From Methyloligella sp. (GTDB taxonomy: Bacteria > Pseudomonadota > Alphaproteobacteria > Rhizobiales > HXMU1428-3): a stretch of DNA of 64,000 bases. The position numbers were made by a program, and so were the translations under genes. The notes beneath the pieces were generated by a model. That model was not told the DNA's origin. It saw only the letters and a program-made list of their open reading frames with translations, and did not search any database. The stretch covers positions 310,001-374,000 of the forward strand of contig BQJJ01000001.1 in NCBI GenBank assembly GCA_021604645.1, read 5' to 3'. Positions 48,587-55,441 of the stretch are shown piece after piece (the first letter of the stretch is position 1; each line of letters opens with the position of its first letter).

Positions 48587-49903
48587 TCATCCTTTCGCAA
48601 ACATATCTGATGTAATCGCTGAGTACCACGCAATTGAGTCTAGGTAGGTTTGTTTTCGAACATCTTTGTCTTCGCTAAGAGCTGAGAGAAATCCAGAAGT
48701 GATCTTCATGGTCTTTTCGTTTGGCTCGTATTGAGAGGCGTACTTTACGCAATTTTCTGGCGAGAGCAGTGACCAACACACATTGAAATAGCTTGGTTTG
48801 AGTTTCGTCTCACCAACAAATTCAACCAATATAGAATTGGCAACTATTTTGGCCTGACTATTAGCAAGGGAAGCTGACTTAGGAAAATCCTTGGCTTTGT
48901 TGACCATAGATGAATCTCCCAGAACATAAACATCCTTGACTTTTAGAGATGAAAAATCCTGTGGTTTAATTGGGCACCAATCACCCTCGGCACAACCGGC
49001 CGCGTGAGCAATTAACCCGGCCTTCTGGCCAGGGATAATATTGACAACATCAGCCTTTATTGTCTCGCCATCACCTGTTGTAACGGTCATTTCATCTGGG
49101 TCGACCTTTTTAATCCCGCCATCTGTAAAGTCAGTGCCTATCCATTCAATAATATCGCCGTAGTGCCTTTCCCAGCCTTGCTGGAACAAATTCATTAAAG
49201 CAAATTCTGCTTTGGGATCAAAAATGATGAGCTTGGATTTTGGTTTATGGGTTTTGAGGTAATGGGCAATCATTGAAGCGCGTTCATACGGCCCAGGCGG
49301 ACAACGGAATGGATCAGGCGGCGCTGACATCACAACCAATCCACCATCTCTCAAACCTTCCAGTTGGTTTTTAAGAATTTTGGTTTGCACTCCGGCTTTC
49401 CAGGCATGCGGCATCTTCTGCGCAGCGCCTGGGGTATACCCCTCGATATCCTCCCACTTAAAGTCTATGCCAGGCGAGAGAACCAGCTTGTCATAGGTGA
49501 GCTTCTCGCCGCCTTTGAGAAAAACTGTTTTTCGCTTCGTATCAACATCAAGCGCCATGTCATGGATGATCTTGATACCAAGCTTTTTTAATCCGTCGTA
49601 GCCATGTACAAGCGAGCCAAGAGTTTGAAGCCCGCCAAGATATAGATTTGAAAAGAAACACGTCGTGTAGTGCGGGTTTACTTCGACGAGTGTCACATCA
49701 AGATCGGGGGCTTGCCTTTTGATGAGATGAGCTACAGTCCCACCACCAGCACCACCTCCGATAATAACAACTTTGCCCTTGCCCTGTGCATAGGCAAATG
49801 AGCCAACTAATGACGTTCCAAGTGGAGATGATCCAAGTGCTGATGCGGCAAATGCAGCTACACCAGCTTTCTTTGCAAACTGTCTTCGATTGATTTTGAC
49901 CAC
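48587..49903 (-). CDS. fccB: Flavocytochrome c sulfide dehydrogenase, flavoprotein subunit
   Basis: The 438 residues start with a Tat signal (NRRQFAKKAG, RR at 6-7, cut near AYA-QGKG). The FAD loop is VVIIGGGAGGGTVAHL (45-60). C82 (HYTTCFFSN) is in the place of the Cys that binds FAD covalently in FccB. C201 (FRCPPGPYER) and C376 (NVCWSLL) fit the redox disulfide; the spacings of 119 and 175 residues are close to those of the Allochromatium protein. It should oxidise sulfide in the periplasm. No cytochrome subunit gene (fccA) or sox gene adjoins it, so the electron acceptor is unknown. Confidence 0.88.
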   Translation of the reverse strand: MVKINRRQFAKKAGVAAFAASALGSSPLGTSLVGSFAYAQGKGKVVIIGGGAGGGTVAHLIKRQAPDLDVTLVEVNPHYTTCFFSNLYLGGLQTLGSLVHGYDGLKKLGIKIIHDMALDVDTKRKTVFLKGGEKLTYDKLVLSPGIDFKWEDIEGYTPGAAQKMPHAWKAGVQTKILKNQLEGLRDGGLVVMSAPPDPFRCPPGPYERASMIAHYLKTHKPKSKLIIFDPKAEFALMNLFQQGWERHYGDIIEWIGTDFTDGGIKKVDPDEMTVTTGDGETIKADVVNIIPGQKAGLIAHAAGCAEGDWCPIKPQDFSSLKVKDVYVLGDSSMVNKAKDFPKSASLANSQAKIVANSILVEFVGETKLKPSYFNVCWSLLSPENCVKYASQYEPNEKTMKITSGFLSALSEDKDVRKQTYLDSIAWYSAITSDMFAKG

Positions 49904-52204: not shown

Positions 52205-53089
52205 TTAGCTTTGAACTGTCAGAGCTTTCAAAATTACACTCAGATTATGTTCGAACATAGCAAGGTAGCTTGTTGCCGGTCCGCCCTTAACTGAAAGCGC
52301 ATCAGAGAAGAGGCGACCACCAATTTTGAGTCCTGTTTCTTTCGAAATTTGTTTAACAAGTGCAGGACTTGTGATGTTCTCAACAAAAAGCGCAGCAACT
52401 TTCTCACGCTTGAGTTGATCAATCAATTCAGCCAGTTCTTTTGCTGATGGTTCAGCTTCTGTATCGATGCCAACGGGCGCCAAGAATTTTAGCTGATAAG
52501 CGCTTGCAAGGTACCCAAACGCATCATGTGCCGTCACAACAATCCGGTTATCTTTAGGAAGTGCATTTAATTCCGCCACAGTGTGCTTATGCAGCTTTTC
52601 TAGTTTAGCGATATAAGTCGAAGCGTTTGCTTCGTAAGTTTTTGCATTTTTAGGGTCAGCCCCTGCCATTGCCTTAGCAATGTTGCGAACGTATATCACG
52701 CCATTTGTGAGGGCGTTCCAAGCATGTGGGTCGACTTCTCCATCGACCTTAAGAGGGGTGATGCCTTGAGTGGCAACAAAAACTTTAGCTTTTGTACCAG
52801 ATGTTTCAATCAGTGTTTTCGACCAAGTTTCAAACCCAAGGCCATTCACGAAAATAATGTTGGCATTTGTGACCGCACGAGCATCATCGACATTTGGTGT
52901 GTAAACATGAGCATCAGCATCAGGGCCAACGATTGTTGTGATTTCAGCCAGATCACCTGTCACCTGCTGTACCATATCACCAAGTATGGAGAAACTGGCA
53001 ACAACTTTTAACTTTTCGGCATGTGCCGGTGCTATGAATAGTGCAAGTGATAGGGCATAAACCGCCAAATAGGAGAGGAGTCGTTTCAT
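52205..53089 (-). CDS. Metal ABC transporter, periplasmic binding protein (TroA/ZnuA family)
   Basis: The 294 residues begin with a signal peptide (LALFIAPAHA). The cluster-9 binding-protein ligands are visible: H61 (DADAHVYTP), H122 (DPHAWN), H188 (VTAHDAFGY) and D263 (LFSDALS). This His3-Asp set is the zinc/TroA type; manganese proteins have Glu at the third site. The His-rich loop common in ZnuA is absent. It overlaps the permease gene by 4 nt. Given the upstream cobalamin riboswitch, cobalt is a likely substrate by inference; zinc (AztC-like) is the main alternative. Confidence 0.9.
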   Translation of the reverse strand: MKRLLSYLAVYALSLALFIAPAHAEKLKVVASFSILGDMVQQVTGDLAEITTIVGPDADAHVYTPNVDDARAVTNANIIFVNGLGFETWSKTLIETSGTKAKVFVATQGITPLKVDGEVDPHAWNALTNGVIYVRNIAKAMAGADPKNAKTYEANASTYIAKLEKLHKHTVAELNALPKDNRIVVTAHDAFGYLASAYQLKFLAPVGIDTEAEPSAKELAELIDQLKREKVAALFVENITSPALVKQISKETGLKIGGRLFSDALSVKGGPATSYLAMFEHNLSVILKALTVQS

Positions 53090-54003
53090 AAGACTTTATT
53101 CCTTTTTTGTTGAATGAGGACCGTTTTTGCAGTCTCTGTTTTTTTCTCTGCAGATCTTTTGGATGTGCGTCGAACTTGTGATGCCAGCCTGAACCCTTGC
53201 GGACCAAACAGGAGGCTAATAATGAATATCCCTCCGGCTACAAGCACGATCGCAGGACCTGACGGCACTTTGGGAACATAGAATGAGATGATCAGCCCAG
53301 CCCATGAACTAGTAAGGGCCAAAGCAAAAGTAAGAATGAGATAAGATGTGATGGTGGAGACCCAATAGCGCGCTGCCGTTGCGGGAAGGATCATAAGGCC
53401 AACCGCCATAAGCGTGCCAAGTGCCTTGAAGGCGCCTAAGAGATTTAACACCACCAAAAACATGAACAAATGTCCAACGATCCAAGGACGGCGTAATTGG
53501 CTCTCATAGAAAACCGGATCGATTGTTGAAACAATCAAGGGACGAAGTATAAATGCAAATGAAATCAGTGTGATAACTGCAGTTGCCCCAATAAGCATCA
53601 AAGTGTCATCGCCGATACCAAGAATTGAGCCAAATAAAAAACTCTTTAAAGGCACTGCTGAGCCAGCAGCGGATAAGATAAAGATACCAAGGGCAAGAGC
53701 AAGTAGGTACATCGAGGCCAAGCTCGCATCCTCCCTGATAATTGTCTTGTTAGCTAAAAGCACCGAAAACAGCGCAACGCTCACACCAGCTATTAATCCA
53801 CCCACTATCATAGAAAATACTGACAATCCAGCTACCACAAAAGCAATCACGATACCGGGGACGATCGCATGCGCCATCGCTTCACCTGCCAGAGATAAGC
53901 GCCGCAGAACAAGAAAGGCTCCAACCGGAGCAACCGAGAGACTAAGGATAGACGTCGCCAGTAGCGCCCGTTTCATAAAATCATAATCCAGCCACTCAAA
54001 CAT
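53086..54003 (-). CDS. Metal ABC transporter, permease (ZnuB/TroC family)
   Basis: The 305 residues have about eight membrane helices. Seen: APVGAFLVLRRLSLAGEAMAH near the N-terminus, typical of ABC-3 permeases, then GDDTLMLIGATAVITLI, GTLMAVGLMILPATAARYW and the coupling segment. The last 45 residues are a basic, cytoplasmic tail. It starts 8 nt inside the ATPase gene and ends 4 nt inside the binding-protein gene, so the three form one unit. Confidence 0.92.
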   Translation of the reverse strand: MFEWLDYDFMKRALLATSILSLSVAPVGAFLVLRRLSLAGEAMAHAIVPGIVIAFVVAGLSVFSMIVGGLIAGVSVALFSVLLANKTIIREDASLASMYLLALALGIFILSAAGSAVPLKSFLFGSILGIGDDTLMLIGATAVITLISFAFILRPLIVSTIDPVFYESQLRRPWIVGHLFMFLVVLNLLGAFKALGTLMAVGLMILPATAARYWVSTITSYLILTFALALTSSWAGLIISFYVPKVPSGPAIVLVAGGIFIISLLFGPQGFRLASQVRRTSKRSAEKKTETAKTVLIQQKRNKVL

Positions 54004-54778
54004 TTACTAAGACCTTTGGTTTCATGTTTGTCTGTTTTACTTCCGCTTGATCGGCATACATAGTCTCTAACCAGCCCACTTGGCTTTGCGAGAGATACCC
54101 GTAATCGACAAGGTTAGTTGGTGTTAAAACCTCGTGCGGAGAACCAAACAACGCTTCGTTGTTACCAAGCAGGAGTGCCTTGGTGCAATGTTTAAGAACA
54201 GCCGAAAGATCATGTAAAACAAGAATGATGGCACGGCCTTCCGCGGCCCAATCATCAATTAGCCCCAAAAGGTAAGACTCTGTCGTCTGGTCGATTGCCG
54301 TAAAAGGCTCATCAAGCAAAATCAAAGGGGTGTTCTGAACAATGGCACGTGAGAATAAAGCGCGTTGTAATTGTCCTGCTGATAAAACATGCAGCGGTTG
54401 GTCTGCGATATGGGCGATGTTGGTTCGCTCTAGCGCATATTCGACCAAGTCTTGATCTTTTTCTTTTAGCCAACCAAATAAGCCTAACCTTTGCCACGCA
54501 CCCATTGCCGCCAGATCACGGACGCGGATTGGAAAACGTCTATCAAATTCTGTTCTCTGTCCGAGATAAGCGATTGACTGCGGCTTTCCCTCTGGCCACT
54601 CAAGCGTCCCACTAATAGGTGGGATCACATCTAAGAGAGTTTTTGCAAGCGTCGATTTCCCTGAACCATTATGCCCCACAACGGCAAGGACCTCACCAGG
54701 TTCTACCTGAAAAGAAACGGATTTAATGAGCGGCTGGCCTGCATAACCAAGTGCGAGCTGCGAGGCTTTGAGTAACAT
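53996..54778 (-). CDS. Metal ABC transporter, ATP-binding protein
   Basis: The 260 residues hold Walker A (VVGHNGSGKST, residues about 34-43), the signature LSAGQLQRALFSRAI, Walker B (LILLDEPF) and the switch His in LVLHDLSAV. Helical-domain text QRTEFDRRFPIRVRDLAAMG is typical of ZnuC/MntB-type ATPases. It is the first gene of the transporter unit, about 270 nt below a cobalamin riboswitch and 100 nt below a short reading frame. Confidence 0.92.
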   Translation of the reverse strand: MLLKASQLALGYAGQPLIKSVSFQVEPGEVLAVVGHNGSGKSTLAKTLLDVIPPISGTLEWPEGKPQSIAYLGQRTEFDRRFPIRVRDLAAMGAWQRLGLFGWLKEKDQDLVEYALERTNIAHIADQPLHVLSAGQLQRALFSRAIVQNTPLILLDEPFTAIDQTTESYLLGLIDDWAAEGRAIILVLHDLSAVLKHCTKALLLGNNEALFGSPHEVLTPTNLVDYGYLSQSQVGWLETMYADQAEVKQTNMKPKVLVNV

Positions 54779-54880
54779 AACTTGTCCTAGAGTTTAGATG
54801 GTGATTGTTTATACTGAGTTGTCTGTGATCAAAGCGGTGAAGAAAGTCAAACACCAGAGCTGTCAAACAAATCGTAAAAA

Positions 54881-54991
54881 TCAAATTTCTTTGATTAGTA
54901 CACTGTCTAGGAACAAGCGTTTTAGCAGTTTAAATGCAATAAAACCGCCGCGGCTATGCGGATTTTGGTAAGAAAATATCGTCAAAGACAT
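54881..54991 (-). CDS. Candidate 36-residue leader peptide or small protein between riboswitch and transporter
   Basis: ATG 54991 has a full AAAGGAG seven bases upstream and opens a frame of 36 codons, reading MSLTIFSYQNPHSRGG, then FIAFKLLKRLFLDSV and LIKEI, stop 54881. It is the first start codon below the riboswitch. GGGGCGGGCGACCCC just before its ribosome site could be the expression platform. No family was recognised. It may be a small protein, a leader, or chance. Confidence 0.45.
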   Translation of the reverse strand: MSLTIFSYQNPHSRGGFIAFKLLKRLFLDSVLIKEI

Positions 54992-55046
54992 GTGTATACT
55001 CCTTTAAGGGGTCGCCCGCCCCTCATGATGGAATTAATAATAAAGA

Positions 55047-55246
55047 CTTGGCAGGTTTTCTGGCTTACAGTTATGGGCAACTTACTCACCTTCCCAGCTG
55101 AATAAAGCCAGTGGTATATCGAGTGTGCCAACCGTTTACAGTTGCGAGGACAGCCCCGGTCTTGCTGAACAATATTTTGCTGCTAAAATAGTACAGCTCA
55201 CCGAGTTCCCTTTTAAGCTTGGTCCATAAAGATCAAGACGCCAAGT
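55047..55246 (-). ncRNA. Cobalamin (AdoCbl) riboswitch
   Basis: Read on the minus strand, the elements appear in order: closing helix arm CTTGGCG, AAAAGGGAACTCGGTGAG, GACCGGGGCTGTCCTCGCAA followed by CTGTAAACGG (the B12 box region), CCACTGG and CTGGGAAGG, then AACTGTAAGCCAG and AAACCTGCCAAG, which closes the P1 helix. This set is diagnostic of the class I cobalamin riboswitch. It lies ahead of the metal ABC transporter genes, with a short reading frame in between. High adenosylcobalamin normally turns such genes off. Confidence 0.93.
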
Positions 55247-55441
55247 GTTTGCAATCTAATGAAGGTTAAATGAAATAACAAGATAAATATTTTTGTTATA
55301 AAACTAGGCCTTACTTTGGTCTGTTAACTTTAGTGATTTAGGTCGCACAATTATATGCAAGTGAGCTTTCAAACCGTTATGAATTGAAGATTTATCCAGG
55401 GCTATTTCTGGCACAAATCCAAAAACTAAAAACTATCTATA
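55247..55441. other. Region upstream of the riboswitch
   Basis: This should hold the promoter that reads through the riboswitch toward the transporter genes. No gene or repeat was recognised. Confidence 0.4.

Follow-up and report, generated by a model that had tools for sequence, protein, structure and literature searches.

The operon described here encodes a metal ABC importer that belongs, as judged from sequence, to a well-supported, dedicated branch of the ZnuA/TroA family linked to a cobalamin riboswitch. Cobalt import for B12 synthesis is its best-supported role, and a high-affinity ABC importer has probably moved here from zinc to cobalt. The ZnuA/TroA importer family is known for zinc, manganese and iron. 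The operon is located in the window, i.e., the whole stretch of 64,000 nucleotides that was analysed, to which all coordinates below refer unless a locus is named; a flavocytochrome c sulfide dehydrogenase flavoprotein gene lies nearby (48587-49903). The importer genes are:

53996..54778, minus strand: ATPase gene, AztA-like (Pfam ABC_tran PF00005; NCBIfam AztA 196.7 bits, cut-off 220)
53086..54003, minus strand: permease gene, AztB-like, with the motif GEAMAH (Pfam ABC-3 PF00950, 5.5e-47; NCBIfam AztB 203.3 bits, cut-off 280)
52205..53089, minus strand: periplasmic metal-binding protein gene, AztC/TroA-type (Pfam ZnuA PF01297, 2.4e-80; NCBIfam AztC 280.3, cut-off 350)

As read in an earlier note on this DNA, each of the three genes shares a few bases with the next (54778-53996, 54003-53086 and 53089-52205). 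PF01297, PF00950 and PF00005 are present above their cut-offs in one operon, as in cluster A-I (ZnuA/TroA) importers; the best NCBIfam matches, AztA, AztB and AztC, are all below the curated cut-offs of the AztABCD equivalogs. The same note had described H61, H122, H188 and D263 as kept and the His-rich loop of ZnuA as absent, which agrees with our findings: the four metal ligands are present in all clade members covering the sites, and the 11-residue loop before H122 is free of His up to the ligand. All binding proteins of the clade carry such an 11-residue loop without the His-rich stretch of ZnuABC systems. In every clade permease covering the motif, GDAxxH is replaced by GEAxxH, and GEA is also seen in one permease of the outgroup (L055). 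The Asp of this motif reportedly plays a role in metal passage, from work on PsaBC. The missing His-rich loop and the GEAxxH motif would agree with a changed substrate. The AlphaFold model of the binding protein (mean pLDDT 88) has AztC 5w57 as its nearest structure (Foldseek E 8e-27); it says nothing on metal choice.

Upstream of the ATPase gene the following features were located:

55033..55260, minus strand: cobalamin riboswitch aptamer (RF00174), 96 bits, E 1.2e-22, model positions 1-189, full length
55144..55149, minus strand: L5 loop bases CCUCGC, predicted kissing interaction with 5/6 pairs to L13 (relatives scored 5-6/6)
55007..55023, minus strand: hairpin P13 with loop L13, expression platform, position and sequence kept in nearly all members
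55019-55014, minus strand: kissing segment GCGGGC in L13
54999..55005, minus strand: Shine-Dalgarno sequence AAAGGAG directly 3' of P13, identified by sequence, same layout in most members
54881..54991, minus strand: remnant of the gene for a small membrane protein with one helix; its 36 codons end in a stop in place of a conserved Trp

The riboswitch scores 96 bits against a gathering score of 31.5 bits for RF00174, and 160.8 bits with the clade-specific model R1, whose training set includes the window. The earlier note had placed it at 55246-55047 on the minus strand, within the full-length match at 55260-55033, and directly upstream of the importer genes; this holds with one refinement, as 254 nt separate the aptamer from the ATPase start and contain the regulatory hairpin, the Shine-Dalgarno sequence and the small ORF (54991-54881). 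The platform has the L5-L13 kissing hairpin of RF00174 expression platforms, and one L5/L13 pair shows a compensatory exchange (A-U in four members, C-G in seventeen). In most members the hairpin is followed by a Shine-Dalgarno sequence at a distance of 6-11 bases. Because AAAGGAG stands right behind P13 in the window, the riboswitch probably acts at translation initiation; class I cobalamin riboswitches that control translation have this platform layout. Promoter scans around the operon gave counts no higher than shuffle level. Elsewhere, cobalamin riboswitches were observed in four genomes near a conserved gene pair, one of which is a 2Fe-2S oxidoreductase (L083, L085, L087, L093).

Orthologues at 59-88% identity were taken from named genomes and searched with the Rfam model and a model built from eleven clade riboswitches. 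A riboswitch is found ahead of the operon in 29/30 clade members with enough upstream DNA, the window included; L005, L015 and L017, whose sequences begin too close to the operon, were left out of this count. No riboswitch was detected in 17 homologues at about 42-50% identity, a class-wide draw that includes three with little upstream DNA. In the binding-protein tree all riboswitch carriers form one clade together with the riboswitch-free locus L009 (support 100/100). The earlier note had proposed either a cobalt-specific branch or a zinc importer wired to B12, and had held that orthologues regularly without a riboswitch would count against it; with the riboswitch missing in 1/30, the dedicated riboswitch-linked branch is borne out by tree and orthologue survey. 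Beyond the operon genes, no conserved neighbours were found in the clade. In L030 (2402-2754) the riboswitch stands directly ahead of the binding-protein gene, with no ATPase or permease gene between. Two contigs carrying clade members, L010 and L017, are labelled Anaerolineae and Gemmatimonadaceae; since G417, the apparent source genome of L010, is placed in the class of the window, these labels look like mis-binning.

Several genome associations point to cobalt. In G410 (L123) the operon is part of a cob cluster: it comes immediately after cobU-cobT-cobV (Pfam CobS), and the cluster also contains cobD, cobQ, cobO, cobW and cobN. In L010 (G417) genes for a CsoR/RcnR-family repressor and a NicO (RcnA-like) protein are located behind the binding-protein gene. 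In each of G326, G262, G392, G403, G407 and G410 a single cobalamin riboswitch was found, that of the operon, which leaves no zinc or manganese isozyme under the same control. CobN was detected above cut-off in 25/27 clade genomes. CbtA, CbiM or a true NiCoT was found in 5/28 clade genomes vs 16/21 CobN-positive controls (Fisher p 9e-5, with kinship ignored and the search of the control genomes covering families other than CbtJKL); HupE is present in 12 clade genomes, and with HupE counted the contrast drops to p 0.06. Six clade genomes (G403, G405, G406, G407, G410 and G409) carry CobN, in G409 in fragments, together with zero matches to CbtA, CbiM, HupE and NicO. The genome of the window has CobN with many cob genes around it and only two cobalamin riboswitches, the second of which precedes a CbiM-like gene; the operon is thus not the sole cobalt candidate in this genome. 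At least one further ZnuA-family protein is encoded in every clade genome. The genome of the window has a ZnuA of its own whose His-rich loop is very long, at about 100 residues, and whose gene adjoins a NicO-family gene with His-rich stretches (L046 9762-13031).

The genome context favours cobalt over a zinc importer wired to B12. Under the zinc alternative, cells short of B12 would rely on zinc-dependent, B12-independent enzymes such as MetE and would need more zinc. It draws on the H3D metal site, which equals that of the zinc-binding AztC and nearly that of ZniA, on AztC as the closest structure and on the zinc-type locus of L009; zinc proteins have the same metal ligands, and nothing in these or elsewhere in the sequences proves cobalt. 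It is nevertheless unlikely, since the transporter is the sole riboswitch target in the six genomes named, no metE occurs among the identified riboswitch-downstream genes (part of which are annotated), the zinc-gathering loop is missing clade-wide, a separate ZnuA with a His-rich loop is present in the genome of the window and others, and the operon is linked to a cob cluster and to CsoR/NicO genes.

The locus L009 is nested in the clade and has the metal site, loop and permease motif of the clade, and its position inside the riboswitch clade makes loss of the riboswitch the simplest reading. Its neighbours are a WD40 gene and a COG0523 GTPase gene whose product shares 58-61% identity with its counterparts in zinc aztABC loci. 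A simple, crude palindrome search, which found sites in two zinc loci, detected no Zur-like site in L009. The single riboswitch of its genome drives a CbiM-like gene. This pattern is consistent with transporters having traded duties, but it also shows that the clade protein type may serve zinc. It also lends itself to a broad Co/Zn (or Co/Ni) importer whose use is set by the control element; it would carry cobalt where the riboswitch governs it and zinc in loci like L009, where the same protein features occur in a different regulatory and gene context. For the related ZniA, a link to the accumulation of zinc as well as manganese has been reported (PMC10797113). Against this very unlikely alternative, the loop is missing throughout the clade and the permease motif has changed, which points to an alteration of the protein itself and not of its control alone. 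A role in manganese import for metalloenzymes that work without B12, e.g., the class Ib ribonucleotide reductase NrdEF, is likewise very unlikely: in Tritonibacter aquimaris (L014 3588-7608) a second, divergent B12 riboswitch precedes the B12-independent nrdI-nrdE-nrdF back to back with that of the importer, but this neighbourhood occurs at one locus only, other genomes being without such neighbours, and the third ligand is His in all clade members, whereas it is Glu in manganese/iron proteins such as MtsA.

Among known systems, AztABCD of Paracoccus denitrificans and rhizobia shares with the importer the ATPase-permease-binding protein order, the fold, the H3D site and 40-44% identity; its AztC prefers zinc to manganese more than 100-fold (PMC10797113). 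The clade differs from it by the B12 riboswitch, the permease motif GEAxxH and the lack of an extended loop and of AztD; zinc-regulon neighbours and aztD are present in true aztABC loci and absent from the clade, with L009 as the exception in having Zur-type neighbours. ZniCBA of Klebsiella pneumoniae (PMC10797113) resembles the clade in an AztC-like binding protein without a His-enriched loop; unlike the clade importer, it is zinc-regulated, has Glu as fourth ligand and falls outside the riboswitch clade. CbtJKL of Sinorhizobium meliloti is a canonical ABC cobalt importer under a B12 riboswitch that supplies cobalt for B12 synthesis (PMC7689651), and a riboswitch with a BtuF-like, CbtJKL-type operon was found on S. 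meliloti pSymB. Its proteins are of the BtuF/FecCD type in the order SBP-permease-ATPase, whereas those of the window, with ZnuA and ABC-3 domains in place of a BtuF-like binding protein and a FecCD-like permease, belong to the ZnuA/TroA family. B12-riboswitch control of a canonical ABC cobalt importer is already known for the BtuF type, and the recognised cobalt importers listed in the earlier note need CbtJKL added to them (PMC7689651). Among the BtuFCD-like riboswitch operons of clade genomes, examined as CbtJKL candidates, a clear CbtJ relative occurs in G408 only (51%), and six others are at about 25%. CbiMNQO/CbiM-like systems, CbtAB, NiCoT and HupE are known or predicted to supply cobalt for B12, often under B12-riboswitch control (PMC7689651, PMC2667541); they are unrelated protein families, and most genomes with the operon lack CbtA and CbiM.

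A TroA/AztC-type importer under a B12 riboswitch was not described in the literature searched, an incomplete set. According to RegPrecise-based work, cobalamin riboswitches control 12 orthologues of cobalt-ion transport genes (PMC3766115), and it is possible that the operon was annotated earlier as a predicted cobalt transporter among these 12.

Between riboswitch and ATPase gene, 27 relatives carry an intact ORF, mostly of 40-70 codons, with one hydrophobic helix, which often ends at the ATPase gene start. In the window only a remnant is left, which aligns at the DNA level with the intact ORFs of L006 and L007 and whose translation has lost the hydrophobic stretch. Silent change far exceeds replacement change in close pairs, e.g., 10 vs 1 in L027/L031, and the predicted small membrane protein, usually the first cistron, is under purifying selection. 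It has no match in Pfam or NCBIfam. A profile built without L009 detects it in L009 (E 1.5e-8); since this locus is riboswitch-free, the small protein is more than a leader peptide for a riboswitch. Outside the clade, 10/12 related operons have similar small frames with one helix ahead of the ATPase gene, assigned by position and hydrophobicity, as the profile scores are weak. In related zinc-type loci, such proteins stand just upstream of aztA-like genes at L053 3290-3526, where the front part is His-rich, L150 2115-2255 and L151 2218-2316; they are unannotated or listed as hypothetical, the latter in a Skermanella aztA locus. The ORF is absent from the three rhizobial aztABC loci examined. 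The small protein may be an importer subunit. We tentatively suggest, with somewhat less than even confidence, that a cluster A-I branch changed from zinc to cobalt as a four-part machine, in which an undescribed single-helix subunit shared with AztABC-like zinc importers is the cistron directly controlled by the riboswitch.

The riboswitch with its conserved platform, the clade and the genome associations are established; from these we infer both the ligand response of the riboswitch and the metal transported, as follows. When coenzyme B12 is scarce, the aptamer would be empty and the L5-L13 contact would not form, and the first cistron would be translated together with the genes coupled to it. 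The binding protein would take up Co2+ in the periplasm, permease and ATPase would carry it into the cell, and the imported Co2+ would enter the cobalt insertion that depends on CobN. When B12 is plentiful, the bound aptamer would make the L5-L13 kissing contact and shut the ribosome-binding site.

If true, the reading as a cobalt importer adds a cobalt branch to a family of zinc, manganese and iron importers, and, since the change sits on the tree between close relatives on either side, the determinants of metal choice become testable. The small membrane protein would be an overlooked part of a well-studied importer class. The carriers of the operon are some marine and soil alphaproteobacteria; for B12-making marine bacteria whose whole genomes have no match to the other cobalt transporter families searched, the operon would provide a cobalt importer, and would matter for how marine cobalt and B12 exchange is modelled.
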